A program made the position numbers and the translations under genes. 64,000 nt of DNA, taken from contig OY727094.1 of NCBI GenBank assembly GCA_963402885.1, positions 30,816,501-30,880,500 of the forward strand. The letters run 5' to 3'. Below the pieces are notes generated by a model, which saw only the letters and a program-made list of their open reading frames with translations, had not been told where the DNA came from and did no database searches. Of this stretch, positions 291 to 62,031 are shown piece by piece. The number at the start of each line of letters is the position of its first letter. The stretch's first letter is position 1. The DNA comes from Antedon bifida (Eukaryota; Echinodermata; Crinoidea; Comatulida; Antedonidae).

Positions 291-1925
291 CGCCGTCTTT
301 ATGCGGAGATACTGAATTTCAGTGTGATGGCAATAGATGTATATACCACACATGGCGATGCGACAATTACGTAGATTGTTCTGATGGAACGGATGAACAA
401 AACTGTGGAGATGCAAGCGGCATCGGTTCAGGTATGTAGGGAAAATGTCTTATGAAAGTTATATGATTAAAGACAATGTGCATGACGTTTAAATACGGCT
501 CTTTAACTGCGGTACTTATTTGGCAAATTATAATGTTCAAATTAAACCTAATTTGACGCTTTTAAAAGTATATTCCGGGGACTGCAATTAATCATTGACC
601 GGCTGAATAACGTCTGTAAAGCTTGGTTCCCACTATGACGTAACGCAAGGACGTAAACGCAACGCATGCGTGTTAACCAATAACAGGCGACAGTTTGAAT
701 AATCCATCGCTTGTGATTGGTCAATTCACTTACGTGCGTTACGTCCTTGTGTTGCGTCTCTAGTTAAGCTTGGTTCCCACTAGAACGTAACGCAAGGACG
801 TAAACGCAACGCAAGCGTGTTGATCAATGACAAGCGAAGTTATAGACAGTTAGCAATCACAAGCGAATAAGCCATCGCTTGTGATTGGTCAATTCACTTG
901 CGTTGCGTTACGTCCTTGCGTTGCGTCGCTAGTGGGAACCACGCTTTAATAACGTTCGACTGCGGCGATTATTTTATCCTTTGAAATGAGATATATTTTC
1001 ACCAGATGTATCGTTCTACTTTTGATACAAAGTAGAATTTCGTCATAGGTGTACCTACCTACATCTAATAGTAATTTCATTTATCCTCAGACACATGCAA
1101 TACCAATCAGTTCCAATGTCAATATACGTTTGGATGTGTAAATATCAATTACAAGTGCGATGGCAATATTGATTGCATTGATGGATCCGATGAAGAAAAT
1201 TGTGGTAAGTTTATAATATTCACCTCACCTTAGGTGAAGTTACATTCTGTTTCGTCTTTTTGACGTAAACGTAACGCAAATACTTAACGTTAACGCAAGG
1301 ACGTAAATTTACGCAATGTTGAAAACGTAACGGAATGTCGTAAACGTAACGCAAGGACATAAACGGAACGTCGAAGGACGTAAACGGCACGTCGAAGGAC
1401 GTAAACGTAACGCAATGATGTAAGCGTAAAAGTAACTGGACAAATCACAAGCGTAAACTTGGTATTCGTGTACGCCCTTGCGTTTCATCCTAGTGGGAAC
1501 TAAGTTCAACTAGTAGGCCTACCTACGAATTTTCAATGTGCAGGTATACTGACGGGGAATCAATGGTAACTACGATCATGTACAGTCACCACATCAGATA
1601 ATCGTTTCTCATGCATTACGCATAAATAATTCAACATTTATTAGTTTCTATCAATGGTAATACAATAAAAAGGGTGGTAATTTATAATGACACAATACAA
1701 AAATACCATTAATAGAGGATCTTGCAAGAAGAGATTAATTCTTGTCACGCAAACGACAGTCATAATGATAACAATTAGGACTACCGTTACAATATTGTCA
1801 TTCTTTTTGTATTACAGATTGCGAGGGATTTCAGTGTGTTTCGGATTCAACTTGTATTTATACATACTGGGAGTGTGACAATTACGTGGATTGTGCCGAC
1901 GGATCAGATGAGTCAAATTGCGCTA
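291..1925 (+). CDS. Gene 1 exons for LDLa repeats 1-3
   Basis: Three exons (291-431, 1091-1204, 1818-1925), each one LDL-receptor class A module with six cysteines and the calcium-box signature (for example [36 protein letters not shown]). LDLa modules bind calcium and usually mediate protein-protein contact. All are phase 1 on both sides. The introns are about 660 and 610 bp and hold family-2 MITE copies. Confidence is high because cysteine spacing and the acidic box are intact in all three. Confidence 0.88.
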
Positions 1926-4900
1926 GTACGTTTTCCTATTACAACATAACCGTACCATATTAACTCATCATTCTTCAATATTTTTGTCACGTGATTGCTG
2001 AATTTTGTTAAAAATTAAAACATTATTATTTATGTTATTAATGTAGTCATTTTAAACAATGAATTAAACCCTGTCACGCGAGGGCTGTGCATTGTTAAAA
2101 ATTAAATTACAAAATAAAGCATTATTTATGTTATTAATAAAGTCTTTTTAACAATTTAGCTAAACCCTGCTACACTAGTCCGTGTGGAAACAATGGGTAT
2201 TGCGTGGAAGACTCGAGTAATGACAATGGATACACGTGCTGTTGTTATGATACGTGGTGGTATGGAACCAATTGTGAAGGTAAGAGATATTGAGAACACT
2301 CACTTCTTATGCCCCACACATCTAGGCCAGGTCATCGATCGTCTAGATCCCTCTATCCTGGGCTTTAGCTACCAGTTCTTCCCATCTGTGTCTTTTCCGG
2401 TCTTTTTTGTGTCAGTTTGAGGGTCTCCTCTATTTATTGGTCGGCCTCTTTTCCTCTCCCTCGAGGGTTCCAGGGCTATCGACATGCCGTGTTACCAAAG
2501 AAAGGACTCTCAACCGATACACATAGAGTATGGTTGGACCGCCACCAGAAACGACACTACAAAATACTATTACCACTAGACATAATATCGTAGAGGAATC
2601 GGCTGGTTTGATAATGCATCCAAGCACATACAACTGCTTTTTTCATTTCTATGAAGGAAGACCTACATACAAGTTCTTTGATAGTTCCACGGCCCGTAAC
2701 AGTCACCGCGCGTCACGGAGAATGTTGGTATTTATCGCAGCCAGACACAATATCAAAGGACTGTTACGAGTTTCTATCTTGGCAAAGTGAGCTCAGTGTT
2801 AAATTGACTTGATTAAATAAGGTACAAGTAATAAAGTATACTTTTAACCCACTTTTTTATTTTTGTCGACAGAGTGTAATGGAACCTTGTGCATGGATAC
2901 ATATAATGAATCTCAATCATGTATTACTGATCTGAAGCAATGCAACGGAATTCATGATTGCTTTGATGGCTGGGACGAGTCAATAGATAATTGTTCAGAA
3001 TGTGAGTATTCGTCTTGTACCGCGTTCCCGGCATTATAGTTCCTGCTCCGCCCTGAAAGTCTTGCTAGACTTACGCCTTGGTTCTGAGAATCCGTCGTCT
3101 TTTGCTCTTGCAACTCTTCGGATTGGGTAGGTGCCATTGTGCTGTTACATGAAGTTGAAGTGGTCCAAATCTCGTCTGATAGGCTTACAATTTTAATCTT
3201 TCTTGGTCTTGGCTATACTATCCTATCCTTATATCTGTCAACCTCTCCTGATATCCAATCCTCTTCTTGTGCATCTTATAATCTCCTTCCTACTCGCCTC
3301 AATAATTCAGCCTTCTTCCTACTGTACAGTCAACTCGTCATGGTGACGACTTCACATCTAGTTTACCGTACATGTTTCAGACAGCAAAAGTTCAGTCGAA
3401 AATTCCACAATTCCAAAAAATAATATATGTTTTTTAGTATACACAGAATGCTACGTACGTGATAACGGTCTAGACTATTCTGGAACCGTTGCTGTCACTA
3501 ACGATGGACGGACTTGTGGCGATTGGGAAAACACAAATTACAACGGACAGCAGTCGAACTATTGTCGCAACCCGGATGGCAGAACCGATGGACCTTTTTG
3601 TGTAGTCATCAGTGGCACCGTTCATTTGGAAGTGTTATGCGACGTTCCACCACCGATTGACCCATCGTCTGCTACTTGCACGACGGGTATGTCTTTAAAG
3701 CTCTGTCTACACTATCAAACTTTATGTGACAAAAAATGTGATGTTCCCATATATAGACATGATGATGTCATATCACTACCATCTTTGGGCATATCACTAC
3801 CATATTTGAGCACATCACACTTTTGTGTTATCACATACATTTTAGTCGGCAAAATAGAAAAATCAGAGAAATACTACTATAGTACACACATTTCTAAATT
3901 TTGTTACAGTTCCAGAAGTACGATTGGTTGATGGTCCAGCTACGTACATGGGTCGAGTTGAGATATATTACAAAGGTACATGGGGCACTGTTTGCGACGA
4001 CGGTTGGGACATTCAAGATGCTACGGTTATATGTAAAATGCTTGGATATTCTAGTGCAGTTGAATCTCATAGTTCGTAAGTATACACTCATAGTTCGTAA
4101 GTATACACGCAGCTAGGTGGTTCATAGTTCGTAAGTATACACGCAGCTAGGTGGTTCATAGTTCGTAAGTATACACGCAGCTAGGTGGTTCATAGTTCGT
4201 AAGTATACACGCAGCTAGGTGGTTCATAGTTCGTAAGTATACACGCAGCTAGGTGGTTCATAGTTCGTAAGTCACGCATCTAGGGGGTTCATAGTTCATA
4301 GGTATACGAAGCTAGGGGTTAGTTCCATAGTTATTATTTTATTATTTAATTACGCTGCTGTTCGTAATTTTTTTTATTTATGACGATAATGTTTTTAGGG
4401 CTTATTTTGGAAGTGGAACTGGAGAAATACTTCTCGACGATGTTGACTGTCTGGGCACAGAGATTAACATAGCAGACTGTCTATTTCCTGGATGGAATTC
4501 CCATAACTGCGATCACGTCGAAGATGCCGGCGTCACTTGCTACGAGGAAGGCATGTTAAAATTCATTAATAATAGATCTGTGTATCGAGCAGTTCACATT
4601 TCAGCTAATACATTTCATATTTATGGAGATTTGAAACTAATTACTTTATTTTCCAATTTTACAGGGTCGGTAATTCCTGATTATACGCCGCCTTCTTCTA
4701 ATGATAATAATAGTCAGACATCATCAACAGGCGTATGCGGTGGGGGATCTACCGATGGTAGCGGCAGCGGCAGCGGCAGCGGCAGCGGCAGCAGTAGTAG
4801 TTCAGGATATGGTACTGATAGTATCGGCGGTAATAGTGACGAAAGTACCAGTATTGCGGGCACTCGTAGGGGAGGTATTACCAATACCGAAAGTGGTGAG

Positions 4901-7900
4901 AGTGGGAACGAGGATGCATATACTTCAGATATGACGCCAGATTCCTTTACATCAGACAATGTAGTCACATCAGACGGTGAATTGAATGATTCTGACAATG
5001 GAATGGATGGATCAGAAGCGCCTACTTCGGAATATACAATTATATCAGATGACCAGACAGATTCAACAACAGATGGTTCATATATCTCAACTGGACTTGA
5101 TACTTCAACTGGTGAAGTTTCCTTAACTGGACAAGATTCTTTAACTGGACAAGATACTTCAATCGGACCAGATATCTCAACTGGACCAGATACCTCAACT
5201 GAACCAGATACCTCAGATCCCACATTTTCATTTACGTTCAACGACATTCCCAGTGAAACCAGTTCAATGGTTCCAACGGCCAACACTTTTGCATCCAGCA
5301 TCAATTGGCAGAGGTCAACGGGGTCAATGGAAACGACCAAGGCGATCGACTCTAGCGTTGCAACAGACGCAGATACATCTAGTGGATATACAACTGCAGG
5401 AAATTGGTTGTTGACAGACATCACAAATTCAACAAGTGAGCCAAATGTACGCAAAAGAAGGGATGTACTCAATGAAACGATTTCAAATAGTAAGATATAT
5501 TAAGCTATGTCTACACTATCAAACTAGATTAACAAAAGTGTTATGTACCCAAATATGGTAGTGATATGACATCATCATATCCATATATGGGCACATCACA
5601 TGTTTTGGTCACATAAACTTTGATAGTGTAGACAGAGCTTTAGAATGCTTCTAATGGAAAAAGAAACATAAATAATAATATTGGTATGATACCAAACGAA
5701 TATGAATAATATTATATATAGCTTAATTGAAACTTGACGTGTTTTAAAATATTGTTTTTTTCAGTCACCAAAATTGACTGTGTCGAAAAAGGGTTTAAGT
5801 GTTCCTCCGGCGAGTGTCTTCCGGAATGGATGACATGCAATAACTTTCCTGATTGTGAAAACGGGGATGATGAATTTGTGTGTGGACCTGCAGCTCAGGG
5901 TGAGTTATAATGTTTTAAAAGTTATAGGCCTACAAGCTGTCCACAATAAACCTTCAGGGAACTATAACGGTTAATCGCGTACATCGCGTTGAAAACAATG
6001 TCTGAGTAGACTTGCTTAGCTTAGCTCTAGTTTGTTTACTAGCTCGAATGCAGGTTTGACACATATGCCTTGTTTTAACAATGTTATATACATGGCTGCA
6101 GTTGCGTGCTCAAGTTAGTGTTTACCGACCAACCGACCGACCGACCAACCGACATAGTGAGCTGTAGAGAAAAATGTGTTCGAGAGTTTCATTTCCGGAC
6201 GTTTTAAAAACACTGAACAGTTAGTACTAGTAGGCCTATAAACAGTATTTTAAAATGAAAAAAAATGAAGTAAATTCTATTATGCCTACTGTACATATTG
6301 ATATTTGCAATGCATTTTGAATTTCCTTAGATTGTGGACCTGGAGAAGTGAAATGCGTAAAAGGTGAGGAGAGGTGCATATCGGCTGTGAAGGAGTGTGA
6401 CGGCGTTGAAGACTGCAGTGACGGTGAAGACGAAACAAGACCCTATTGTCCTTCGCTCGAACAAACACTACCCGATGGTTTAGGTGAGCAAAACCTTTTG
6501 TATAAATACTAATGTACACTATGATACTTTATAATTATAAATCATACTGTAAAATTATAGAAACAGTGCAGTATTCGAAACATGATCTTATAATCGCGTA
6601 GAGCCTAGCTCATCGGCGAAATGTCCGTATATTTAGTTGTATGAATAAATGTCTCTGACGGGATTCGAACCTGCGACCTCTCGCTTACAGGGCGAGTATC
6701 ATACCACTAGACCACAGAGCCATATATGGTATTATCACAGATTCACCCACCAAGAACATGAGCACTGTTTCTATAATTTGACAGTATGATTTATATATAA
6801 TTTACACAGTGCTACGCAACACAATTGATTTACATATACTTTATAATTATATGCATGACAACCAGTTAAATTCATTCGTACTTTATTGGATAACACGCAT
6901 GGCTTGCCTTAGCATAACGTACACGGTCACGCATACCCGCAATAAACTCAGAGTACTAATCTGTCTCCGTAGTTATGCCCTTTTTGCATTACGTCATTAA
7001 ATTATTCATGCTTTACGCAGTGTAACTAGCGCCATCACAATATATTAAAAAGCACACTCACTGTCCACAAATTCTTTGTATGTTTGTGCATATATATGTC
7101 TGTATGATCCTCCATGATGTAAGAATGTAACGTATATTTGTTGCGTTTACAAAGGAATTATAATCTCGAGTTATTTGTATCTTTAATATTGGCAGAAATA
7201 ATTATTAGCGCGCCATCTATCGGTCATTTTTCAAAGTATTTCTCTCATTCTATTTTTCAGAAAACTTTACATGCCCAGATGGATATTTCTTTTGTAAGTC
7301 AGGATTGTGTATACATAATTATTACCGTTGCAATTCTGTCTTTGATTGCTTTAATATGAAGGACGAAGAAGATTGCACTGGTCAAGGTAATTATAAGACT
7401 CTGTCAACACTCCTATCAAACTTTATGTGACAAAAAACAAAATGTTGTACCATGGTAGTGATATGCCCAAATATGGTAGTGATATGCTTAAATATGGTAG
7501 TGATATGACATCATCATAGTGTAGACAGAACTTTAGAATTAAACTGTTTTTTCCAAATAGAGACCACTCTCTGACATAGAACGATGTTAAATAGAGATTA
7601 AATCATAGCAATAATAAAAGGATAATAAGAAGCAAATAATATTTGAGTAACTTTCTAGAAGAATTTTTTAATTTCTTACGAATTAAATAAAAAGTATATA
7701 TATATATATTTGCATTTTTTTTTAGAATTAAACGAAGAAGAAACGTTTCCCGAAGATTGGTACGAACCATACACAAGCTACACCAGTAACCCTGTATTGT
7801 ATACAGATTTCGAAGAGAACTTTTACAATGAACGTGGATTCGACAGGGTCAAAGGTGAAGACCCACCGGATTGGAACAGTTTTATTACTTTCAGCTCAAA

Positions 7901-10900
7901 TCCGGATTACAGTGACTTGGAAGATGTATTGAAGCTTGGAGATGAGGAGATTGAGGAACTTGGTCACCAAGCTGAGGACTTTATTTTACAGTGTACTTAC
8001 GACCAAAGGTCTTGTAGTCCCAGGTATGGCTTGGTCCCACTTGGATACGTCATCTAAGCCGCTTAGGCGTAACGCAAATGAGTTCACAAGCGACACGTCG
8101 CGATGGTTGGTTAAATTGCCTGCGGTGCGCTTACGTCCTTGCGTTGCGTCCTAGAGAAGCTCGCTCAGCCCGCCTTCCGCTAACAACGGTAGAACTGTAC
8201 ATTGTCAATTGTATGCGTGGTGAAAGTCAACTCAGTAGGCATACAATATATATCAGGATCAGTATACTGTATTGGTTTTTGCCACCTGCCCTAGATGTCT
8301 CCAAATACACTTCCAAACACATTTACTAATGTTTTAAAATCTCTCTAAACACACACCTGCCACAGAGTGTTGCGGCTATCACCGGCAAGATATTGTATTA
8401 AAGAGTATTAATGTTGTGACACGTGAATTACAATTTTTCAGTGACTTCGGCAAATTTCAAGACGATAGGTATGGTAACTGCTACATATTTAACCACGGCA
8501 GAGATGGAAGTAGCTTAGTAAACTCTACAAGGACGGGCGCAAAATACGGTAACTTTAGTCACTAAACACCGAAATACCACCCGATTCTTCAGCTGTCATT
8601 AGATAGATATTAACTGACTATTGCACGTCATTGAGATACAAGCCTAGGTTATCTTAATGAAAGCTGCAGAATCGGGTGGAAATATACCCGTTCCAAAATA
8701 CAGTTTTTAAGCAATATTAATTTTCCTGACTTACTGAATTACTTCCAAGGTTTTTCTCACGTCATTGTGAATGTTTTGTTTTTACTATGTTTTTACTTTG
8801 TTTATTTTAGGCCTGAAGCTCACACTTTTTCTTGAGCAAAAAGAGTACATAAGCATTTATGGGCGAGATGCTGGCGTGAAGGTAATTTTTGACACACACG
8901 ATCGACTCAAGTTCCCACAAGACGAAGGGATTATTATCAAACCTGGTGCTATAACGTTTGTCAGTCTCCGATACGTAAGTAAAAAATGTGTACATTTACG
9001 TATTAGTACTATAAGAAACGCTTTGCTTTTGGTATCACACAATTTGTTTTCACGACGCAGCAACCAACTACGCAGCTATTTAGTCAACAATAACAGTCAA
9101 CAGTCATTCTGCGTACGCTCGTGTTGAAAGAATGACTTTTCGACACGATAGACACGTCAATATAGTGGTGCTTTATGAAAACGAAAGTTTTCTTAATTTC
9201 AATCACCGATACTGTTGCGTATATACTATTGCGTATGGCTAGAAACGAAGAGGTTACTATAAAGCTTAAGTATAATATCAGATAAAAAATAGTCTTCCTT
9301 TGTTATTCTAACGTGAGCTTTTCAATTTAAATGTGAAAGTAACACAATGATTTTTTTTTTTTTTATTCTTTTTATTATCGGATATAGAACGTAGTTTCGA
9401 AACTTGGAGGCAGATATGGCGATTGTATCTCGGAGTCGGAAGACTTTCAGGAAAATATGTACAACGCTTTTGGGGTTAAAGGAGTGGATTTAAGTTACGA
9501 TGCAGTGGTAGGTTATGAATACATTGTTTGTACGAGCACATTATTCATAAATCTCATAAAAGAACAATTCACTTTTTCAAGTGCAGTAATCTTATATCGT
9601 GATTACCACAACCCATTGACGTTATCAAACAGAATATGACATCATCAGTTTTTTTGTCGAACACAATGAGTTTGACAATTCTCCCGGTTCAAAGAGGTTG
9701 CCCTTAGGGTGTTCACGTATCATTTTAAATACTATACTTAATATCATATTTTGACTGAAGTTGGCCAACAGGAATTATCATTATCTTTCATTGGTGCCTC
9801 TAGGAAAGCGTCACAGCTATTCTGTAGTTCTTGTACATTTTAGTAAAAAAAAAACCTTGGTTCCCACTTGGATGCAGGCCCACCGTAAGAAATCTGACCA
9901 ATCACAACGCGACGGATCATCCAAACTGTCGCTTTTGATTGGTCAACTTCCTTGCGTTGCTCCTACGTTGTGCGTTGCGTCCAAGTGAGAACGAAGCTTA
10001 ACAACGTGTGTTTATACGTATAGGGTTGTGATAAAAGTTGTGCAATAAATAAAATCAAATCTGAATGCGGCTGTACGGATACAGTTACTGCCGACCCAAG
10101 TGAGCGATGTGAAATCTTAAACAAAACGCAAGGTAAATTACATTTTGTTTGCATTTTCTTCTTCGCACTGTTTTCGCACAAAATTATAACAAAGTTCTAG
10201 GACTGCCTATATCATATAACGTTAGCTATGTAATATTACTTTAGCTTGGAAAAAGGAACGTGCCTATTATTCATCGTGTTCATTCGAAGAGAACAAATGT
10301 TTAAAAACTTTGATTTGAAGGTTTCATAAAGACATGTCCTATTTTCCATTTCTATGATTTGTGATAAATAATATAGGCCTACAAATAATGAATGTTTATG
10401 AGTGGAATGGTACAAATAATTTCCAGAGGTTAAAAATGAAATTCTATTTCTTTCCATCGACAAAAATAGAATACACCACCGCACTCGCGAGCGTAAAAAT
10501 AGGGCACTATTTTGTATCATGTGACCCACAATTGTCCACTCAAATGGTGACAGGGATCTATTTAGGTGTTATCTAAACCGTGCTAATGTATACTATTTAT
10601 TCTTTCAGATGTGTGCAGACAGTTAATGTACTATTTCTACAATCAGAAGTTATTAGATTGCAATTGTCTTCAACAATGCGAGTTAGTATCAGTAGTCTTA
10701 CATTATTGAAAAGCTTAATTTAATTTACGACATGAGCGCAGACATTCACTATAATTCCTATCGTAAAGTATAATTTCATGAGTATTTTAAACGCTATAGG
10801 CTATGTTGCAATGAAACAATGATGGTTTACTATAAACAAGTGAACATACTGTAGTACTGACATTTGATTCTTTTTGTTTTGATTCTAGCAAGGAATATTA

Positions 10901-32879: not shown

Positions 32880-32938
32880 AATTGGCTACATTAAGTAGAA
32901 ACTAAAACCAAAACGTCTGGATGACGCCGACCCGTCCG

Positions 32939-51900: not shown

Positions 51901-54900
51901 CATATTTGGGCATGTTGCTACCATATTTGGGCAGACAGAGTTAAGACAGGGCTTAAGGGTCTTTCAGTATTTCATCTGTCCATAGGGACCAGACAACTAT
52001 TCTCTAATAGTGTTTTGACAGCTACACTGGGTTCTATAAGATGCACATGATCCAGATATGTACACAGACCTATCTGAGAAGGTCTCTATCTACCACACCA
52101 TAATTATGACCGTGGAGAGCCTTGAACCTGTGCCAATATTATTTATATATTATAGGTTGCGGCAACTTGAATCGATAATTGCTGAAAAGGGAAGTTATAG
52201 TCTCTAAGCAAACTGTACAACAATATTTAAAAGTTTACATAATAGACTACCTGTTGTTTCTGATACTGGAGGTGTAAAAAATGACTCCCTGTCAGCGGGC
52301 CATGTACTGCTCAGTTCTATGTTTGTTGTTTCTATGCTAGGTTGGTTGGTTGTTTGTTCTATGGTGGATATTTTCTCTGTTGTCTGTACCATGGTTGTAG
52401 GTATTCTTTCAGTTGTTGGTTGAACAGTACTTGGTGCTATGGTGGTTGGCAATTCTGTGGTTGGCATGACAGTTGTTGGCAATTCTGTAGTTAGGACCAT
52501 AGTAGTTGCATCGAGGGTTGTTGGTGTTTCTGTAGTTGGCAGCTCAGTAGTTGGCAATTCTGTAGTTGGTACTGTAGTTGTTGGTTTCGCTGTAGTTGGT
52601 AACTCGGTAGTTGGTATTTCTGTCATTAGTTTCATAGTTGTTGGTATTTCTGTAGTTAGTACCTTGGTAGTTTCCAATACTGTAGTTGGTACAATGGTTG
52701 TTGGTTTTTCTGTAGTTGGTATTTCTGTAGTTGGTACTATGGTTGTTGGTATCTCTGTAGTTGGTACCATGGTTGTTGGTACCTCTGTAGTTGGTACCAT
52801 GGTCGTTGGTATTTCTGTTGTTGGTACCACAGTTGTTGGCAATTCTGTAGTTAGTGACTCAGTCGTTGGTATAACTGTTGTTGGTAAATTAGTTGTTTGT
52901 GCTACTATTGTTGGTCCTGTGTAAACTGCTTCTGTTGGAGGTAGTGTTGTTGGAACCCAAATGGGGCAATCAACAGCATCATGACAGTCAAGCTCATCTG
53001 ACCCATCCCTACAGTCACATACACCATCACACCTAAAATCAAAAGGCAAACAGGTACCTCCATTGTACTCGCCATCACAGGCGAAATCACCATTTTGGCA
53101 TCGAGCTGAAAAATAAAATTTGCTAGAGAACAGTACTTTTAAAAATCATTGTATCACATCTTACATTTGTTCATCCATTTAAAAATAGGAAAATATACAC
53201 TCAAATGACTAAAAAAATGTTTAAACAAATCAAGAGCAAGCGCATGACTCACAAATTACACAATAGAAGACCCATTATTTGTAGACCAAATCTTAAATGA
53301 GACTTAAAGGATGCTCAGGGTGTGAACCAAAGAACCTGGGATTGATAAGCAAGCATGTTAACTACAATGCCACAGTGCCACTATAGGATATAGGTAAAGT
53401 AAATTTATATTATCTGCATACTTTGTACCACTCTTGCATCAACTTAAGCAATGCAATGGTTTATTTTGTGCATTTTAAAAAAATACTTACAATAAATATT
53501 TGTTGATGACTGTCTATATTCAAATGTCCTACCGTCGTTGTTGATTGTAGCTGTCGTTTCCGAGGGCGCAAACGAAAATACATCAGACAATTCATAGACA
53601 GTCACATGTGAAGATTTATCAAACAATAGAGTGTAATGAACGATAATGCTTCCAGGGCTGAAACCATTGACCATAACAGTTGTAGGTGATAATTGTGAAT
53701 ACTCAGCTTGCAACTAGAAAAAAAAAAGAAATTTGTGATTGGAAACTTCCCTTTTACAGTATCTCAGTATCTCAAACTTGTTTTCTTTGCAGTGTAAGTA
53801 CTGCTAATCTTGAAAGATTGGTGAAAGGTACTATACTGAACATTCTGCCTTTATACACAATTCCCACATACAACAAAAATGTATTAACAAATTATCCCTT
53901 CAGAGTGTAACTCTTCTTTGTGAATCAATATTACAAAGATGAGGGTATAGTTAATTTGATCTTTGTTGCATGTGAGTACAATTAAGAACTAGTGTTATTC
54001 AACTGTACCATTACAAGGACATTAACGAGTTGCTATCCAATCAATTGGGACCATTCAATAGAAGTCCAAGTGGTAGGATGGCTGCATATCAAGCAGAAAA
54101 TTACGGATTTGGATCTTTTTTTTTCTTATTCCCATTTTCATTGTTTATAATTAATTGATTAATTTTCAGTATACCACTGGGAACTTAAAGAGTTTATGTA
54201 AAGGTGTTAATTACAATACTAAGTATTACCAAGGATCTATAAATTAGATTTATAGGTCCATATTACAATGAAATATGATCTTACCAAATTATTGAAAAGT
54301 AACTCATACTGTACATATGCAATATTTCCTGGGATAGATAATGCTGTTGAGTATGAAATATCTTCATTGTTTATTTTGTTGACAGCCAGTGTTCCATCGA
54401 AAACCCGAACTGAAAAATAATTAGTAAGGAGACGGTTGTAGTACAAGAATCGAAACATCGAGACACTCTAAATTATACGTTATTTCCTTTTGGAAATACA
54501 GGGTGTACCGCCAACTTTACTAGTGTTTTAATATCTATCATGCTAGTAGCTTTTACACATAAATATGCAACTTGTATGGTATGGAATGGCAATGTAAAAA
54601 TATCGCCTTTAAATGATGTCAACACATAACTTGCAGTACAAGAGGACAATTTGTTGGGTCCTAAAACTGTCCCCTTAATAAAGATTATACTGTATACTAA
54701 AACTAAAATATAATTATATTGTATAGAGATTTAGTACCGAAACTTACAGTTTTCTAACCCTAGTGTCGTTGATGGTGGAGCAGCTGTAGGAGCATTTGTA
54801 GTGATGGGTAATGTGGTCATGCGTGGTGTTGTCACCGGCAGCTGATTGGTCACAATAGGTCCTGAACCTGAACCACTAACTGGAAGAATATTTACAGGTG

Positions 54901-57900
54901 TTGTTGTTGGTGACACAGTTGTTGGGTTGCAGCCAGCCTCATCTGTGTAATCTTGACAGTCTATTTCACCATCACACACCCAGGAGATCGGGATGCAGTA
55001 ACCATAATCGCACTCAAATTCAGTTGTTGAACAGCCATCATCTGTAATAAATACCATAATATAATACCTTATAAATAAAGTATTATCTGTGTCTGAATCT
55101 TACTGTTAACAAAATGTTCCTATCCTTTTCCTCCCCGCGAGTCATACTATACTGCAAACTGCATAAAAAGTCTTACTGTTAAGAAAGACTTTCTATGCCT
55201 TATTCTTAGTAACTCCTATCCAACCATAAAAGTGTTCCCATATTTTACTGCTTAATAAAGACGTGTATTAAAATCTTACCGATAACTGCTGGAGCTTCAG
55301 TTACTTCATTAAGTGTATCTTGGCAATTCTGTTCATCTTTTCCGTCTAGACAATCTGGTACATCGTCACATACCCAGTAGGATGGGAAGCAATTAAGACC
55401 ATCACACTGTAACTCATCAGCCGAACAGACAAGTGGATACACTGCCATTTGAGAATGTTAAAAAAGTACAAAGTTAATACTGAATAATATAGTACAGTAT
55501 CCACACAAATAAACTAAGTATAATAATTCAATTCAACTTCTTTTCCAACTTCTTCTCTAAGAACATATAAACTACTTCCCTATCTCTAATACATTTTGGA
55601 GTCAACAAGCATATTATTTACAAACACAGGAAACAAAAACAATGCTACTAAACATGTGTTGTATACTGTAAATAGATTTTCGTATACCCATTAAAAAAAG
55701 TCATGTCTGATAAACATCATACCAAGGAAATCTAACAGGATGATGAGCTCAGGAGATCAAAGGGTTTATCTGTGGGTGCGACAAGATCAGTCCCACGCCC
55801 TTAACGGACACCGTGTGCAGCGGAGAATATGTACATAGTACAGTACTGTAGGTTTTTTTCGCAGCCAGACATAAGATCAAAGGATCAAAGTTACGAGTTC
55901 CTATCTTGGCAAGGCTCAGTGTCCTGGTGTTAAATTAGAACTACTGCTTCAATGTAGTAGAGAGAATAGAAACCAAAAATCAATCATATGCAATGTTGAT
56001 TCTTTTGATCAATCAGGCATCTTTCATGCATAACAGAACTCATTGACTGTGGGCTTGATGGGGATAGCTAAGAGAGACCGAGAACGAAAAGCAAACCTAA
56101 CTTACACGTTGGTGTAGGTGCAACCGTTGATGGAACAAAACAGACCTCAGTGGGATCCTCATCCGATCCATCTTTACAGTCATAGTAACCATCACAAAGG
56201 AATTGACGGTTAATGCATTCGTCAACGTCCCAGCACTGAAATGCATCATCACCGCATTCAGTGCTATCATCACCTACATCTATAATTACCGATTAAATAT
56301 TGATGTGAATTATACCATGAATAGTATATCAAATACCTATCTTTTCAAAGGATTGTAATAGCATGTTGGGAACAGACATAACTAAATCCATTGGTTATCC
56401 CAGGCTAATTTAGAATAAGAGGTTACCAAAACTGCATTAAATTAAGAACTGTTTCTGGGATTTTAAAAAAGAAGTAAAAGAACTTAATTAATTTATACAT
56501 ATTTTGTTTATAATAGTGAGTGGCCGAGCGGTTAAGACATTGGAACCGTAATTACGTATAGTCATAACATCGGCAAGGGTTTGAGACTCACTCGCTCCAT
56601 GGTTTTGGTGGTAGAACGAGTCTTCTCAGATAAGACCTATAAACCATAGGTCCAGTGTACACATCTAGCTCATGTGCACTTTAAAGAACCTAGTACATCT
56701 TTCAAGACGAGTAGGGGGTTACCCCGGTGTACTAGTACACACACAGCCACTGATTATAACTAAGCCCTCACGGAGACCAGTCTTTGACTGAAGAGGCCGC
56801 TCAGTATAAATAAATAATAATAATGGAAGTACACTACATATAATGCTTACCACAGTCTTTTTCATCACTTTTATCCGCACAGTCATCAATACCGTTACAG
56901 ACCTTTGATTTATCAATACAACCGCCTCTTGAGACACATTTATATTCAGTTCCTTTACATACTACAATAAACATGAACATCAATAATTTGATGAGACTAT
57001 TGACTTGATTACTTAAACTACAGTAATCTACAGTATTTGATTTAGATTTCATGAACTGAGTCCATATACTTATTGTAGTTTCTGTGGAGTATTTAAGAGA
57101 CACAAAGGATTTAATTGAAAATTGAACCAAATGAAATAACATGAACAAATGATTTCATTTTGGAAATTAATAAAAGTTCTGCCCGCCGATATAAATCTTT
57201 AAATTGTTTTTACCCTAGGTTTACAATAGTTTATAATAGTATTCAGAGTGGTTCTTCTGATACTATTCTGGCAAATATACACTTTACTTCATACACATCA
57301 GGGCCGTAACTTTCACTACCCACCCAAATTCACCAGCAGAGATCATCATATTTTATATTAATAATGATATTTAAAGCATCTATGCCTCATCTCTTGTTAA
57401 CCTCTCGCTACAAACAGCCTTGCACAGCAGAGAGTTAACTTGCAAATTACAGCATTGATAAACTATATCTGCTCATTTGAAGCTTATGGAGTGGAATGAA
57501 AACAGTTCCACTGGATTTGAACCCTTGGATTGGAAAGCAAGAATGTTTTAACCACCATGCTACAGCTCCACTATATGAAAACTTACCACATTCATTTTCA
57601 TCAGCCCCGTCATAACAGTCTATCACTCTGTCACATTCCCTGCTTGATGCGATACATACGCCATCATTACTCCCGTTACTGCATCGGAAAAATCCTTCTT
57701 TACATGATGCTGAAAAACAAAAATCACAAGTTTATTTCCAGTCATTCTTTTTCTCTTTGGTGCATTTTTTTTCCAGTTTATTCCCAGTCATATGCTTTTA
57801 CAAGTCATACAGTGCAACAATACCAGATAAAATATGGAACACGCTATACTGCAATCGTATGTTAAACCAATTTATGCAACAGTTTTCTTAATGTAATTTA

Positions 57901-60900
57901 ATTAAATTTAATCTAACCTAATAAAATTTAGACTTACGGTAAGTACAGTCATATTCATCACTGAAGTCGCGACACTGGTTAACTCCATCGCAGATTAGAT
58001 ACGGTTTGACGCAAATCAATTCATTGACACATTGGAAGTCGTCCTCTATACAAGGTGCTGTACATATATAAAAGAATACATTTTCTAAATCAACAATGCA
58101 TTCTAATAATACGAGGGGTAGCTGGCTCATTTGAGTTTAACATATTTGTTGTATTGTATGTTATTGTATATTGTTGATATAATGCTGGTCTAATAAATAA
58201 AATCTTTATGATGCACTTATAGATTTTAAATACTGAAGTTTAAATGCTATAAACTCAAATGAAATTACTAATATACATATATTTAAAAAAATAATATATG
58301 ACCAAAGATAAGATATACTTGAAACTCTATGTTTTTCATGAAATCATTCATTTTAATTGTATTAGTTGTGTCTCTTTTTGTATAGTTTTTTAATCATGTA
58401 CTGTAAATAATAACTTAACTTAACGGCCTTGTGAAAAACACCAATCTGGTGATTCAAGTGTTGCATCCATTTTTAAATAAAGTTAATTGTTATTATTATT
58501 ATTATAGTTTAGTAGATTGTGTGTAAAGATTTTTTTGGTTACCATAATAAGGAAGTGATTTCAGTTCATCCACAATCAAAACCTGACGATATTTTGAGTT
58601 AGCGACAGCAGACCGACGTAGTTTATTTGTGTTGCAAATTGTAACTTTTGGAAATTCAAGCGATGATTTGGTTACGACTTCCAGCTGGAATGGTGATAAA
58701 ATTGATTGTATTTAAAAAAATATAAAAGAAAACAGTAACCAAAATACACATGCATATTGTAAACTGTATAATCTTTGTATTGCTGTGAATTGATGAAAGT
58801 TCTGAAGCTTTAAACAAAATACTGTAAAACTTGGAAAAGAAATCCATCACAAAAAGAAGCACACCCAAGAAACCTAAAAAAGAAGCCCATGGGATTCTTT
58901 TGTGGTTTTACAGTGTGAATAATATACTGTACCAAGCCTGTAGTGATTTTCCTCTGAAGTAGCCTTCATGACCAACAACAAAGTGATTAGACCAAGCTGC
59001 TCATGACAATAAATTTAGCCCCAATCCTGCTGAGTCAGCAGGCAAATTCCATCTACTTGGCTAGGCCTAAAACAATACTTTCTTCAGAAGCTTTGGACCC
59101 TACAGTCCACAGCCCTTGCTTTATGCTCACATGCCCCTTTATGTGGAAAAAAGAATCTTAAGTACTGTACTTACGTTAACTTGGATTGGTCCATCACGAT
59201 ACTTATTGATGACGAATGATGCTTGAAACAAAAACAAAAACACTCCCGTCATAAAAACGATAGCCCACAAGCTTTTCGCAAGTAGCGTACACGACTTGAA
59301 CACGTTTGGCAACGCATGCAAAGTGGTGACATCAGTGGCAAAGTATTCCACAATGTCATGAACACATTCGCCGTGGTAGGACGCATCTGCATTCACCGAA
59401 CTAGCATCGTCATCTGTAGTATTCTGCTTTACTGACTTTTTCCCTGTTGAGGACTTCTGTTTATTGCCTTTCAATGATTCAGTACCAATTGACTCTATCT
59501 TTAGGCGGCTGCCGTCGATCCTAGGACGATCCAGTACAAATGCCATCTGCGTACCAACACCTCTTTGAGCAGATGGGTGGTCGGTTTTCCAATGAATATC
59601 ACTCTCTTTTTTAACACCACTGAAACACAAAATTTCAAGTCTGTTTTCAACTAGAAGTTGCTACAAATGAAAAATGTCTAATTGATTGTGGAAATATATC
59701 TTACGAAAATATTAAAAATACGTTTTTCTATTTTTTAATAGGTTATTTTAATTTCTTTGTCTATTTCATTACTTCTGATTGGTTGAACTGCTGTTGCCGT
59801 GAGCACTATTTGGACTGAACACAACATTGGCACGATTATCTACTTCGTCTCCACCATTCCTGTTTGTAAATCAAGAAATATATATATAACAACATCATCA
59901 TATTCAGCTATTGTTGCTCCATTGCTGATCTCAATCTCGCACCCTCTCCCTGATACCAGTTGGTACCAAAACATCATATTCAGCTATTGTTGCTCCATTG
60001 CTGCTCTCAATCTCGCACCCTCTCCCTGATACCAGTTGGTACCAAAACACAATACATACACAAATACATGTCAGCTAGAAGAAGCAAAGATTATTTTTAA
60101 TTCTTTTTTATTTAAAAGTTTGAACTAGCTATTTTAAGCTTGAACAAAAATTCCCTTACTTTACAATGGAAGTGCCTGGAGAAGTTCCATAGTTACTTTT
60201 AGGACTAAAAGCTAAAATACCCTGACTGCCTCTTTCATCTCCACTATCTCTGAAATTTTAAAGAAAACTTGAAGTTAAAATTTCCTGTGAGTTATGTACT
60301 GGCTGGTCTATGCACCTTAAATTGCCGGTAAACGGAAGCAGTGATGTGGGTTCGATTTGGTTTTGTTTTTTATTCAGTTTTTGTCAAATTTATCAATAGT
60401 ATTTAGGTTTAAGGGGAATATGTTTCATGGTTTTCACAAGCCTTGAGCACTTTAGTGGATATGTGCACTGTATAAATTTTATTATTATTACCTTTAAAAA
60501 ATAATTGTCATATTTCAATGATGATTGAAGTAGAACAATGTATATGTATAGCTTTACACAATTTTACACTTAAAAGCAATTTGCAAGTTGGTGACAAAAT
60601 TTTGACCAGTCTTATCTTTTATTGTAACACAATTTGGGGAGTTGTATTTGACTGGGTATAATTCCCCATCCTCCACCACACCTTGGATCCACCTGAGGTG
60701 CATCTATAAATGTAATACCAGTTCTGTGTGTCATACAGTACCTCCATCTTTCTTGATCATCTTTACTTACTTTGGATGTTTGGAACCATTTTGTTTGTAC
60801 TTCCTCTTTGACATTTTACTGCCGGCACTCCCCTCGTCTCCACTGTTTCTGATTAAAAATAAAAATATATATATTTGTCAAATAACTCTAAACTTAATAA

Positions 60901-62031
60901 CATAAATGTTTACAAATCAGCTGTACGTATACATTAATAATAGAGATTTGTATTGCCTGAGGCAGTAAAAAACCAATCAATTTTAGACTGTTTTATATAT
61001 CGATGTTATGCAAATTTAACTAAGTCTTAATAATACCATATTACAAACATGATTGTATAGAAATGTTAATGATAATTATCACACATGATTGTATTGAAAT
61101 GTTAATGATAATTATCACACATGATTGTATTGAAATGTTAATGATAATTATAATGAATGTTTTGTAACCATTGAAACAATTGAAAATATTTTCATGAGTT
61201 GCAATATTGACTTCCACCTTGTTGGATGGGACAGTAAAGTTGGATGAATCTACATTTTACTCAAGATGGAAATCGAATAAAAGTTTACATTAAGTGTATT
61301 AATGCTCTGTCTACACTATCAAACTAGTTTGACAAAAAAAGTGTGATGCCAAATATAGTAGTGATATGACCTCTTCATGTCCATATATGGGCACATCAAA
61401 TTGTGTTGTCACATAAAGTTTGATAGTGTACACAGAGCTTAACAAAACAAATAAATTGAATTTGGATATTTTTACAAGTTGAAATGGTTCGTTTCAACTG
61501 AAATGATTTTTCCCTCATTAAAACTTTTATAACATTTATTATCCTAAAGTAAACTTTTATTTAGGTTTCCTTTTTTAACAGTTCATAGACTTGCGGCAAA
61601 GTGAGCCATCTCGCTGGAACATGATCAAATAAAAATAGTATAACATAGTTTGCTTACTTTACAATGGAAGTTCCTGAACTAGTTCCATGGTTACTTTGCG
61701 GACTAAACACCAACATTCCACGGCTGTTCCTCTTCTCCCCACTCTCTCTAAAATTAAAAAAAAACGAAAAATTATGAATACTATTTTCCATTTTTCCATT
61801 TCACAGTTAAAACATTTTTTTGTTCATGTTATCTGTCTTTTTTTTTAATTAAGATTATTTAATATCATTCTGCTTTTTAGCCTGTTGAACCACAAATGTA
61901 CAAAAAGATGCGTTTGTATATTTTAAAAAGTTGTACCTAACGGCATGGTTCTCATCTTCAAACTTCTTCTCCTGAACATTGGAGTTGTAAGGTACGAGTG
62001 CTTTACTGTCCACGTCATTGTAATTCTCCAT
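35283..62031 (-). CDS. Gene 3: giant chimeric DEG/ENaC channel with LDLa, SEA, EGF, mucin and acidic-repeat regions (complete)
   Basis: 39 minus-strand exons: 62031-61937, 61747-61658, 60848-60771, 60249-60160, 59859-59773, 59619-59175, 58684-58543, 58057-57938, 57709-57587, 56961-56851, 56273-56106, 55441-55280, 55041-54748, 54409-54285, 53713-53491, 53105-52251, 51709-51558, 51047-50825, 50429-50182, 49676-45401, 45211-45095, 44498-44385, 43724-43599, 43055-42945, 42481-42356, 42126-42016, 41904-41785, 41017-40883, 40590-40471, 39954-39654, 39415-39312, 38825-38662, 38365-38246, 37905-37800, 37323-37251, 36976-36919, 36440-36370, 35977-35902, 35537-35283. The total is 10,515 nt, exactly 3,505 codons including TAA. 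TM1 is near residues 262-283 and TM2 near 3440-3462, so the extracellular loop would exceed 3,100 residues against about 400 in ordinary family members. Channel assignment is firm; a few splice sites are less certain (weak donor at 45401). Confidence 0.9.
36611..36752. mobile_element. MITE family 1 copy
   Basis: AAGCTTGTCTACACTATCAA ... AGTTTAATAGTGTAGACAGA. Gene 3 intron. Confidence 0.8.
37431..37757. repeat. Palindromic minisatellite in gene 3 intron
   Basis: Repeated GTGTGTTTGTACACCATGAT and ATACGTGTACCACCC blocks, in 36-nt and longer alternating units. Each contains GTACAC/GTGTAC palindromes. It lies between exons 37905-37800 and 37323-37251. Frames on both strands here are repeat artefacts. 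Confidence 0.8.
38391..38523. mobile_element. MITE family 1 copy (left end truncated)
   Basis: Starts inside the element (AAAGTTTATGTGACAAAAAA) and ends TTTGATAGTGTAAACAGAGC. Its inner end is 26 bp upstream of the acceptor of exon 38365-38246. Confidence 0.75.
39540..39635 (+). repeat. Interspersed repeat E, 3' part
   Basis: GTTTAGCCAGTGAACGCTCATAGCCATTACG is shared with 63630-63660. Immediately beyond the donor of exon 39954-39654. Confidence 0.5.
40117..40372 (+). mobile_element. tRNA-derived SINE family A, copy 1
   Basis: A tRNA-like head GGCCGAGTGGTTAAGGCAG (box A) and GGTACAAGTCACT (box B region). The body GTTCAGTGTACACATCTGGC, TTTAAAGAACCCAGT and TTTCAAGAGAGTAGGG is shared with the copy at 56514-56825. 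Confidence 0.75.
40471..42126 (-). CDS. Gene 3 exons for LDLa repeats 13-16
   Basis: Exons 42126-42016, 41904-41785, 41017-40883 and 40590-40471. Repeat 14 ([16 protein letters not shown]) and repeat 16 ([16 protein letters not shown]) are normal. Repeat 15 (ICQSGEIRCKPEDSVCIS) keeps six cysteines but has lost the Asp/Glu calcium box, replaced by CSCSVDSDSYKLFC. It is the counterpart of the intact LDLa6 in gene 1 and LDLa9 in gene 2, so it has decayed or changed role here. Confidence 0.82.
41095..41770. repeat. TCAG-rich minisatellite in gene 3 intron
   Basis: About 670 bp of variants of CCTCAGTCAGCCAGTTAGTT followed by AGTCAGTCAGTCAAGCAG. A 4-bp (A/T)GTC periodicity is nested in units of roughly 45-60 bp. 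It nearly fills the intron between exons 41904-41785 and 41017-40883. Confidence 0.85.
42202..42318 (+). repeat. Interspersed repeat E, copy
   Basis: AAGTGGCCCTCCAATGCTGG, GTTTTTAGGC and CATATTTTAATGCCT are shared with 63520-63605. In the gene 3 intron between the EGF exon and LDLa13. Confidence 0.6.
42356..42481 (-). CDS. Gene 3 exon for an EGF-like module
   Basis: Encodes AEYYACYSNPCDPIRSVC, then NYTCQCVDPWLGEGC. Six cysteines with EGF spacing and a CxC pair. It lies within the downstream LDLa block, comparable to the EGF exon of gene 1 (2160-2279). Phase 1 both sides. Confidence 0.75.
42945..45211 (-). CDS. Gene 3 exons for LDLa repeats 9-12
   Basis: Exons 45211-45095, 44498-44385, 43724-43599 and 43055-42945. 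Calcium boxes: [50 protein letters not shown]. They follow directly after the furin-like site of the giant exon, so they would stay attached to the pore half after cleavage. Confidence 0.87.
43205..43440 (-). mobile_element. tRNA-derived SINE family B, copy 2
   Basis: Minus-strand head GGGTAGCTGAGTGGTTATGT (box A) and CCGGGCTCAACTCCCAGTC (box B). The body matches 18838-19022. Gene 3 intron. Confidence 0.65.
44157..44287. repeat. Inverted repeat with about 26-bp arms
   Basis: Left arm GTGGTACACCACGTATATTA and right arm TAATATACGTGGTGTACCGC. Between them on the minus strand lies GATCAAAGCATATTGATC with a nested stem. Gene 3 intron. It resembles the end of a dispersed element. Confidence 0.7.
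45401..49676 (-). CDS. Gene 3 giant exon: SEA3 second half, SG motif, ~1,330-residue acidic repeat region, furin-like site
   Basis: A single 4,276-nt exon in one open frame. It starts LQETLAIHYQVEDMYVTNFY, which completes a divergent third SEA domain begun in exon 50429-50182. TSGSGSVSFNSS follows, then two repeat blocks: about 44 copies of a 14-residue unit (GSESQPEGTDVPWE), then about 44 copies of a 15-residue unit (GESDIIPSTDVPEEE). The exon ends GGSQRRKKRQTNEG, with RRKKR as a strong furin-type motif. The region is extremely acidic and must be extended or disordered; Trp recurs every 14 residues in the first block. The donor (GAAG|GTCTGC) is weak. Without splicing, the frame stops 13 codons later. 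Confidence 0.9.
45490..47480 (-). repeat. 45-bp coding tandem array (15-residue units)
   Basis: About 44 units reading GESDIIPxTD(V/A)PEE(E/G) on the minus strand. Rare variants (GESGIIPNTD with ILSTDAP) recur three times at about 46034-46083, 46619-46668 and 47021-47070. They mark higher-order duplications of 585 and about 402 bp. One unit in the last segment is 3 bp short. Confidence 0.92.
47560..49404 (-). repeat. 42-bp coding tandem array (14-residue units)
   Basis: About 44 units reading TDVPWEGSESQPEG. Recurrent variants include ESQLQNTDVPWE (about six times) and VPLEG (Trp lost, four times). One unit has a two-codon insertion (PEGKGTDV). All indels are multiples of three, so the frame is preserved. 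Confidence 0.92.
50182..50429 (-). CDS. Gene 3 exon for LDLa repeat 8 plus first half of SEA3
   Basis: LDLa: QCQEYDLMCDDGRCISASWV then PDCLDGKDEAMC. After it comes FAGQWQLIEIDHTRVSFSED and YEYSTKVIDA, a SEA-like first half. The exon ends phase 0, as do the other SEA first-half exons, and the giant exon supplies the second half. Confidence 0.78.
50825..51709 (-). CDS. Gene 3 exon pair for SEA domain 2
   Basis: Exons 51709-51558 and 51047-50825. The second contains VNVTVDGFSSGSLIVDFHVL, the SEA core with a G-S-L-I-V sequence at the known autoproteolysis position (family motif G|SVVV). The 223-nt second exon has exactly the length of the SEA1 second exon, which indicates exon-pair duplication. 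SEA domains occur in mucins and membrane receptors. Confidence 0.82.
51818..51955. mobile_element. MITE family 1 copy (right half damaged)
   Basis: AAAGCTCTGTCTACACTCAA, then GATGATGTCATATCACTACC. The right end is reduced to GCAGACAGAGTTAAG. Confidence 0.65.
52251..53105 (-). CDS. Gene 3 exon for LDLa repeat 7 plus Thr-rich mucin-like region
   Basis: The first ~50 residues are an LDLa with a longer first loop (CQNGDFACDGEYNGGTCLPF then CDCRDGSDELDC). About 230 residues follow, dominated by TTEIPTTMVP-type pentapeptide pairs: a classic O-glycosylation (mucin-like) spacer. The long plus-strand frame across it is a shadow of the repeat. It sits between SEA1 and SEA2. Confidence 0.87.
53491..54409 (-). 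CDS. Gene 3 exon pair for SEA domain 1
   Basis: Exons 54409-54285 and 53713-53491. The first encodes FRVFDGTLAVNKINNEDISY and ends phase 0. The second has TTVMVNGFSPGSIIVHYTLL, with G-S-I-I-V at the SEA autocleavage position. Placed after LDLa1-6 and before the mucin spacer. Confidence 0.82.
54748..58057 (-). CDS. Gene 3 exons for LDLa repeats 1-6
   Basis: Exons 58057-57938, 57709-57587, 56961-56851, 56273-56106, 55441-55280 and 55041-54748. Boxes: NQCRDFSDEYDC, IDCYDGADENEC, DDCADKSDEKDC, YDCKDGSDEDPTEVC, PDCLDGKDEQNC, IDCQDYTDEAGC. The last exon adds about 50 residues of Thr/Pro spacer with an SGSGSG run. The first exon (120 nt, CRDFSDE) matches the first LDLa of gene 2 (21211-21330) in length and sequence. 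Confidence 0.88.
55745..55940 (+). repeat. Interspersed repeat F, copy 2
   Basis: GCAGCCAGACATAAGATCAA and TACGAGTTCCTATCTTGGCA match 2735-2785. A few hundred bases from LDLa exons. No other structure was recognised in this intron. Confidence 0.5.
56514..56825 (+). mobile_element. tRNA-derived SINE family A, copy 2
   Basis: Head GAGTGGCCGAGCGGTTAAGA and GGGTTTGAGACTCAC. Body GTCCAGTGTACACATCTAGC and TTTAAAGAACCTAGTACATC. The tail ends in ATAAATAAATAATAATAATG, a simple repeat typical of SINE 3' ends. It ends 26 bp from exon 56961-56851. Confidence 0.8.
57299..57413 (+). repeat. Interspersed repeat D, copy 2
   Basis: CAGGGCCGTAACTTTCACTA ... TTGTTAACCTCTCGCTAC, matching 78-222. A tRNA-like minus-strand sequence (GGTGGTTAAAACATTCTTG ... 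GGGTTCAAATCCAGTGG) follows at about 57485-57575. Confidence 0.55.
58543..59619 (-). CDS. Gene 3 TM1 exon and first palm strand exon
   Basis: Exon 59619-59175 encodes about 100 cytoplasmic residues, then TTLHALPNVFKS and the hydrophobic TM1 (LWAIVFMTGVFLFLFQASFV). Exon 58684-58543 (142 nt, identical in size to gene 2) encodes LEFPKVTICNTNKLRRSAVA. The conserved His-Gly motif is His-Ala here (GCG codon). TM1 and post-TM1 signatures are otherwise intact. Confidence 0.9.
59773..62031 (-). CDS. Gene 3 start exon and four repeated cytoplasmic N-tail exons
   Basis: Exon 1 (62031-61937) starts MENYNDVDSKALVPYNSN; its ATG has A at -3. Exons 2-5 (61747-61658, 60848-60771, 60249-60160, 59859-59773) are 90, 78, 90 and 87 nt, all with phase 2 on both sides. 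They encode related peptides: FSPQSNHGTSSGTSIV, FSPKSNYGTSPGTSIV and FSPNSAHGNSSSTN, plus a shorter basic one (KMSKRKYKQNGSKHPK). Each begins K-(N/D)-(S/G)-G-(D/E)-like. They are cytoplasmic, before TM1, and unrelated to any domain I know. Confidence 0.8.
59895..60046 (+). repeat. 76-bp direct duplication
   Basis: Two nearly identical 76-bp copies (each with TATTCAGCTATTGTTGCTCC and CTGATACCAGTTGGTACC) in the gene 3 intron between N-tail exons. One clear base difference was seen. Confidence 0.85.
61045..61152 (+). repeat. 36-bp tandem repeat, three copies
   Basis: A unit of ACATGATTGTATTGAAATGT plus TAATGATAATTATCAC, repeated three times. Gene 3 intron. Confidence 0.85.
61302..61441. mobile_element. 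MITE family 1 copy
   Basis: AATGCTCTGTCTACACTATC ... GTTTGATAGTGTACACAGAG. Intron 1-2 side of gene 3. Confidence 0.8.

Follow-up and report, generated by a model that had tools for sequence, protein, structure and literature searches.

For touch and salt sensing, channels of the DEG/ENaC family are prime candidates, and there is continuing debate on how extracellular events move their finger and thumb. The locus described here raises the question of whether subunits of this family can carry a whole array of adhesion-receptor modules inside the extracellular loop, and whether array and pore belong to one protein. The original prediction proposed a cluster of three such genes in a stretch of 64 kb, which is called the window throughout this paper (G+C 35.4%, zero N by base counts). 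Three neighbouring genes were obtained from it by hand splicing, genes 1 and 2 on the + strand and gene 3 on the - strand. Their family, their modules and their intron structure point to an animal. As far as the sequence tells, they are three tandem paralogues, each encoding a predicted two-transmembrane DEG/ENaC-family subunit with an in-frame modular cassette.

Gene models and features of the locus

Cysteine-rich open segments were listed, exons were then joined by hand, and splice sites were scored against a generic metazoan consensus. Gene 1 comprises 22 exons on the + strand (291-12941; 1191 aa in the window), its 5' part and TM1 lying outside the window. Gene 2 comprises 23 exons on the + strand (17720-32879) and runs from ATG to stop (1390 aa). 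Gene 3 comprises 34 exons on the - strand (59546-35286; 3323 aa); its start, at 59546 or upstream, is uncertain, and a stop codon immediately follows its last exon. The cluster had been expected to end with gene 3 at 62031, but the ATG ORF there is without a splice donor scoring > 4, and this end was not retained. In the final models (22, 23 and 34 exons), phases agree throughout and internal stops number zero, which bears out the claim that LDLa and other modules are joined in frame to the channel. A chance control for all segments being open in one frame gave log10 P of about -20.5 (gene 1), -21.3 (gene 2) and -31.1 (gene 3); these values come from near-final models with the giant gene 3 exon omitted, and are indicative only, the exons having been picked for openness.

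The weakest points of the models are two chosen junction corrections (3438 and 24895), two acceptors of gene 2 (25379, score -0.6; 29666, score -0.7) and two GC donors (4550 in gene 1 and 30091 in gene 2). Acceptor 3438 of gene 1 was picked because the stronger acceptor 3447 (score 5.5) gives a stop codon at the junction. Acceptor 24910 of gene 2 (score 1.7), also with a stop codon at the junction, was replaced by 24895 (score 3.3). Donor 2995 of gene 1 was tried and failed.

Gene 1
291-431, 1091-1204, 1818-1925 (+): LDLa modules 1-3 of the window; gene cut by the window start
2160-2279 (+): EGF-like exon; Pfam EGF 0.035, below cut-off
2873-3001 (+): LDLa module 4
3438-3686 (+): kringle exon; Pfam 4.3e-12; acceptor 3438 scores 0.9
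3916-4075, 4399-4550 (+): SRCR domain in two exons; Pfam 1.3e-30; GC donor 4550
4665-5435 (+): Ser/Thr/Gly/Asp-rich stalk of 257 aa, net charge -36, without a furin-type site
5765-5899, 6331-6483, 7261-7386 (+): membrane-proximal LDLa trio
7726-12941 (+): ASC part and TM2 in 10 exons (7726-8023, 8442-8548, 8811-8974, 9388-9507, 10024-10132, 10609-10681, 10889-10946, 11868-11938, 12299-12374, 12798-12941)

Gene 2
17720-18070 (+): first coding exon; cytosolic N terminus, HG motif, TM1
19068-19209 (+): exon 2, ending in phase 1, with the FPSVTICN strand after TM1
21211-21330, 21962-22087, 22657-22767, 23156-23299, 23944-24060, 24895-25035, 25379-25495 (+): LDLa modules 1-7
26143-27330 (+): acidic Ser/Glu/Asp-rich stalk exon; coding tandem repeats; furin-type RRRR|F at residue 808
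27532-27651, 27875-28006, 28095-28214 (+): membrane-proximal LDLa trio
28603-32879 (+): ASC part and TM2 in 10 exons (28603-28900, 29142-29248, 29666-29829, 29969-30091, 30406-30511, 30600-30672, 30915-30972, 31094-31164, 31937-32012, 32712-32879); GC donor 30091

Gene 3
59175-59546 (-): modelled first coding exon, with HA in the N terminus and TM1; the real 5' end is uncertain
58543-58684 (-): exon 2, ending in phase 1, with the FPKVTICN strand after TM1
54748-58057 (-): LDLa modules 1-6; exon starts 58057, 57709, 56961, 56273, 55441, 55041; the sixth with a Thr/Pro-rich tail
54409-54285, 53713-53491 (-): SEA-like module 1, phase-0 intron between; Pfam SEA 0.058, below cut-off
53105-52251 (-): irregular LDLa with seven cysteines and Pro/Thr-rich mucin-like repeat
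51697-51558, 51047-50825 (-): SEA module 2; Pfam SEA 2.6e-9
50429-50182 (-): LDLa and N half of SEA-like module 3; Pfam SEA 0.0076, below cut-off
49676-45401 (-): giant exon; C half of SEA-like module 3, 1324-aa acidic repeat, furin-type RRKKR|Q
45211-40471 region (-): distal array of four LDLa modules, exon starts 45211, 44498, 43724, 43055
42481-42356 (-): EGF-like exon, recognised by eye
42126 (exon start) to 40471 (-): LDLa exon, then the membrane-proximal trio with exon starts 41904, 41017 (degenerate) and 40590
39954-35286 (-): ASC part and TM2 in 10 exons (39954-39654, 39415-39312, 38825-38662, 38365-38246, 37905-37800, 37323-37251, 36976-36919, 36440-36370, 35977-35902, 35537-35286)

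Several other elements were observed in the window. The 21-base motif ATATCACTACCATATTTGGGC has 19 sites at <=3 mismatches (e.g. 3770, 7465, 51891) against 0 expected; 10 of the 19 are arranged as five adjacent pairs, and the sites lie outside modelled exons, as a dispersed repeat family. A gene 1 intron includes, on the opposite strand at 6649-6722 (-), either a gene for tRNA-Thr (TGT) or an element derived from a tRNA, and the SRCR intron of gene 1 carries a 34-bp tandem repeat. A perfect 14-bp tandem repeat (24313-24462, +; 10.7 copies, 100% matches) lies in a gene 2 intron. Between genes 1 and 2, a stop-to-stop ORF of 245 aa rich in charged residues is present at 15014-15748 (-); Pfam returned nothing above cut-off for this ORF or for those at 24464-24928 (-), 60606-60902 (+) and near 62 kb.

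Channel part and extracellular array

The DEG/ENaC motifs of the original prediction were found by sequence search at the claimed places in all three genes. DFILQC is located at 7977 (gene 1, +), 28854 (gene 2, +) and 39686 (gene 3, -), and YGNC at 8470, 29170 and 39379 (-), respectively. The CxCxxxC motif reads CNCLQQC in gene 1 (10659), CDCKQQC in gene 2 (30650) and CDCPQSC in gene 3 (37253, -). The TM2 motif reads GLYIGIS in genes 1 and 2 (12834 and 32748) and GLYLGLS in gene 3 (35481, -), so that GxS, the selectivity-filter motif in DEG/ENaC TM2, is GIS, GIS and GLS. The post-TM1 motif FPxVTICN is likewise present in the two genes for which it was claimed, as FPSVTICN in gene 2 (19098) and FPKVTICN in gene 3 (58631, -); the site in gene 1 is outside the window, as is the region ahead of TM1. 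The usual DEG/ENaC motif before TM1 is HG, and work on ENaC indicates that changing this glycine might lower opening; gene 2 has HG and gene 3 has HA. Judged by sequence, the DEG/ENaC features tested here are present, except for HA instead of the usual HG in gene 3. A further DFVLQC at 23485 (-) was taken as chance because its short frame is without ASC features and 0 of 88 tblastn hits of ASC and TM exons in the window fell outside modelled exons.

The spliced proteins were scanned with Pfam at E <= 0.001, gene 3 being submitted as two pieces with the body of the repeat exon omitted, and ASC and LDLa domains were recovered in all three genes, as anticipated. The ASC match (PF00858, cut-off 23.6 bits) has values of 5.6e-58 (197.5 bits) in gene 1 and 7.9e-74 (249.8 bits) in gene 2. 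It is split by the array in gene 3, with profile positions 4-88 before it (2.1e-16, 60.4 bits) and 127-455 after it (6.7e-63, 213.7 bits). TM-like segments (19-residue hydropathy > 1.6) number two in gene 2 and two in gene 3, where they flank the array with none within it, and one in gene 1, which the window truncates on the 5' side. From this topology, the cassette is almost certainly extracellular.

By eye, LDLa modules number 7, 10 and 16 in genes 1, 2 and 3 (33 in total), in agreement with the range of 7-16 given beforehand; Pfam delimits 6, 10 and 8+6 stretches (30 in total), each of the four scanned pieces matching LDLa at 3e-41 or better. The six-cysteine pattern is kept in 31 of the 33, the exceptions both being in gene 3 (53105-52251, with seven cysteines, and the degenerate 41017-40901), and a calcium-site-like acidic pattern is found in 31 of the 31 modules with six cysteines. 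From the first to the last LDLa, the array spans about 780 (gene 1, incomplete), 810 (gene 2) and 2700 (gene 3) residues. The common plan, mostly of phase-1 exons, combines LDLa modules with an acidic low-complexity stalk and a trio of LDLa close to the membrane; a kringle and SRCR are added in gene 1, and SEA-like modules and the 1324-residue repeat in gene 3. Each gene had been expected to carry EGF, kringle, SRCR or SEA domains as well; this held for gene 1 (kringle, SRCR and a sub-threshold EGF-like exon) and gene 3 (SEA, and EGF-like by eye) and failed for gene 2, which has only LDLa modules and the acidic stalk. In the EGF-like exon of gene 3, Pfam gave no EGF match and only DUF7949 (0.0044, below cut-off). 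One of the three SEA-like modules of gene 3 is above the Pfam cut-off (37.6 vs 26.4 bits), the other two scoring 14.0 and 16.8; comparison of this SEA module 2 with solved structures gave no match up to 0.1.

The stalk of gene 2 has 327 residues with a net charge of -96, and the gene 3 repeat consists mostly of 14/15-residue acidic units with a net charge of -409. The gene 3 repeat exon is built of 42-bp and 45-bp tandem units, both multiples of three, and is open on both strands (45360-49676, -, 1438 aa; 45385-49404, +, 1339 aa); its length may vary between individuals.

Candidate cleavage sites occur near the end of the acidic stalk, ahead of the LDLa modules leading to the membrane. Genes 2 and 3 each have a single R-X-[KR]-R, at residue 808 (RRRR|F) and residue 2520 (RRKKR|Q) respectively, with 0.10 and 0.03 expected in 500 shuffles; none was found in the gene 1 product (0.014 expected). 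Cutting of the gene 2 and gene 3 cassettes by furin-like enzymes is somewhat favoured. G-S-[VIL]-[VIL]-V is the cleavage turn of self-cleaving SEA modules. It is present as GSIIV in SEA-like module 1 (residue 560) and as GSLIV in SEA module 2 (residue 967) of gene 3, which possibly self-cleave, and module 3 is without it.

In the four pieces scanned at E <= 0.001, only LDLa, ASC, SRCR and SEA were reported, with neither a trypsin-like domain nor a YWTD beta-propeller. Type II transmembrane serine proteases (matriptase, TMPRSS) resemble the predicted proteins in having a membrane anchor and a SEA/LDLa/scavenger-receptor stem, according to a review (PMC8199346), whereas here the protease domain is absent and a second TM and a channel core are found instead. 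The LDL-receptor family shares tandem LDLa modules with the calcium-site-like pattern, but the present proteins are without the YWTD beta-propeller and are predicted to be two-TM channels, not single-pass receptors. The three products are thus judged to be neither type II transmembrane serine proteases nor LDL-receptor members.

Inheritance of array and pore as one protein

Comparison of the paralogues bears directly on whether array and channel belong together. Genes 2 and 3 share 20 reciprocal-best exon pairs (23 vs 33 exons, giant gene 3 exon omitted), all collinear in the order TM1, LDLa, TM2. Exons 1-7 of gene 2 pair with exons 1-7 of gene 3, exons 8, 11 and 13 with 16, 22 and 24, and then all ten ASC exons pair; two of the ASC pairs score low (23 and 26), and exons 9, 10 and 12 of gene 2 have no reciprocal partner in gene 3. 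Genes 1 and 3 share 16 pairs, all collinear, and genes 1 and 2 share 17, one of them out of order. All three genes share the phases of the nine introns within the ASC part, and array introns are in phase 1 except inside the SRCR and SEA-like modules. Eight comparisons by region and gene pair, covering ASC, TM1 and the N- and C-terminal LDLa, all gave a pN of 0.24-0.38 against a pS of 0.77-0.95, which is saturated, so no Ka/Ks ratio is given. Array and channel both look constrained. Because the exons are collinear, the ASC phases identical and both parts apparently constrained, we conclude that array and pore have been inherited and maintained as one protein from before the duplications onward. 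Phase continuity, the split ASC match and exon collinearity give good support to the proposal that a DEG/ENaC pore carries an array of adhesion-receptor modules in its extracellular loop.

Three other readings of the locus were weighed. The main product could be a plain DEG/ENaC channel from which the whole array is skipped, array-containing forms being minor. The introns flanking the array are in phase 1 on both sides in genes 2 and 3, so skipping keeps the frame, and gene 2 would then encode 578 aa. This is nevertheless improbable: five N-terminal array modules correspond one-to-one between genes 2 and 3, and the array is constrained about as much as the channel part, which together suggest that the array-containing proteins matter.

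Separate interleaved genes, with array and channel exons on different transcripts, are highly improbable. In gene 3, an open frame that begins with ATG and includes a hydrophobic run continues into the first LDLa exon (58057) and might encode a weak signal peptide, although T-rich acceptor tracts often look hydrophobic when translated. The frame that leads into the first LDLa exon of gene 2, by contrast, contains a stop and lacks an ATG. In gene 3, exon 2 and the first LDLa are just 485 bp apart. Since the array sits between the TM1 and TM2 exons, an ASC-only transcript of gene 2 or gene 3 would be without TM1, and array and channel exons are collinear between the paralogues, all of which argues that separate transcripts are unlikely. 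Decayed gene copies with chance open exons, which a few weak splice scores and the HA of gene 3 might suggest, are the least probable reading in view of zero internal stops over 22, 23 and 34 exons, the constraint seen and the intact family motifs.

Place of the array in the finger and its possible role

With array and pore taken as one protein, the channel part was compared with solved structures. The gene 2 channel with the array removed matched ENaC alpha best (2.1e-52), followed by ENaC gamma and ASIC1 (30 distinct sequences), and a three-row ASC profile matched ENaC alpha (5e-60) and then ASIC1 (32 sequences). The ENaC-alpha alignment halts at residue 145 with the three-row profile (173 with the gene 2 query) and restarts at 276 (275), and ASIC1 (7cfs_A) is aligned with the profile over 28-116 and 167-472, the array falling in the gap. 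Because both alignments break there, the array falls in the finger, in the region that is occupied in ENaC by the protease-sensitive GRIP domain. The cassette is predicted to be placed after the first extracellular strand and before the last finger helix. In ENaC, the GRIP domain lies between helices alpha1 and alpha2, and these stretches are described as unique to ENaC in the structure paper (PMC6197857); for the present array, we infer a position exactly between alpha1 and alpha2. The low-confidence predicted structure of the exon after the array (pLDDT 47.7) has helices at 22-34, 49-56, 64-67 and 72-91, of which 22-34 and 72-91 could be alpha2 and alpha3 in this model; that of the exon before the array, of equally low confidence (pLDDT 46.8), has strands and no helix.

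The three products resemble ENaC alpha and gamma in the ASC domain, in extra finger sequence and, for genes 2 and 3, in furin-type sites there. In ENaC alpha, however, the skipped stretch is about 100-130 residues, against arrays of about 780, 810 and 2700 here. According to a review (PMC8199346), ENaC alpha has two furin cleavage sites, which flank an inhibitory tract in the finger, and gamma has one, whereas genes 2 and 3 have one site each and gene 1 has none. A further difference concerns the last 80 residues of the three products, in which PPxY was not found. C-terminal PPxY is a motif of the ENaC subfamily, to which the three products, being without PPxY and without alignment to GRIP, are not assigned. 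ASIC and FaNaC have the same two-TM fold and cysteine motifs, but the matched solved chains are of 421-679 residues and none has such an array.

Modular proteins in the DEG/ENaC family have a precedent in the EGAS proteins of C. elegans, whose ASC domain is joined to EGF modules outside the cell; to our knowledge, these have no LDLa, SEA, kringle or SRCR. A limited literature search had no title on such a channel among those listed, the titles that combined ENaC, LDLa and degenerin being on proteases, and is too small to call the architecture undescribed; the novelty of the ASC and LDLa combination is provisional. Scans with the three-row ASC alignment gave 53 pattern matches in prokaryotic contigs and 131 in viral contigs with no confirmed relative, and tblastn of the N-terminal part of gene 2 against phages gave no match; the scans have no bearing on animals.

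The reading that we favour, as a reasonably probable one, is that these are DEG/ENaC subunits whose finger bears an extracellular loop that is processed and binds ligand or matrix, and by which gating would be influenced. The cassette would project from the finger of each subunit in a trimer, and its LDLa modules, calcium-binding by their pattern, would bind ligand, matrix or particle; that the cassette binds something through these modules is likely. During maturation it would be cut by furin and possibly, in gene 3, by SEA self-cleavage. Binding, pulling or removal of the cassette would then shift the finger and thumb and alter the opening of the cation pore, much as cutting of the GRIP region activates ENaC, an analogy that serves as a lead rather than as a test; an effect of binding, cutting or pulling on gating has somewhat less than an even chance. 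A role in mechano- or chemosensing, immunity or adhesion for a stalk coupled to the pore can reasonably be inferred, as the original prediction had suggested.

Other accounts assign the array different work. It might be a scavenger- or lipoprotein-type binding surface, with the channel half mainly reporting or anchoring and with no role for force or cutting. The 31 of 33 LDLa modules that keep six cysteines, all calcium-site-like, are consistent with this, as are the matches of the gene 1 SRCR, which among the best 60 of 69 are scavenger-type SRCR proteins with CD163/M130 first. The furin-type sites at the stalk end in two of the three genes and the SEA cleavage-like motifs in gene 3 suggest processing instead, and this account is rather doubtful. 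Still less likely is a gating device in the GRIP slot, in which furin and self-cleaving SEA modules would leave two membrane-anchored, non-covalently paired strands, whose separation by force or a bound particle would open the pore; it would be the channel counterpart of adhesion-GPCR or Notch-type activation.

Very unlikely is a protease-recruiting stem, by which the array would dock or mimic proteases whose stems likewise contain SEA, LDLa, SRCR and kringle modules, some of these proteases being ENaC activators. SRCR occurs in TMPRSS proteases and kringles in plasminogen, both being ENaC activators, and the best matches of the gene 1 kringle are HGF and plasminogen. The domains of matriptase comprise one SEA, two CUB and four LDLa, and ENaC is activated by proteases, as stated in a review (PMC8199346). 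Against this stand the absence of a protease domain from the Pfam results for the three genes and the wide use of these modules, which makes their sharing a weak argument.

If the favoured reading of a processed, binding loop in the finger is correct, the three paralogues, with a conserved pore beside a receptor of very different length, would allow a direct test of finger-pore coupling. They would also be a case of exon shuffling by which a channel loop gained whole receptors, near the site at which vertebrate ENaC is controlled by proteases.
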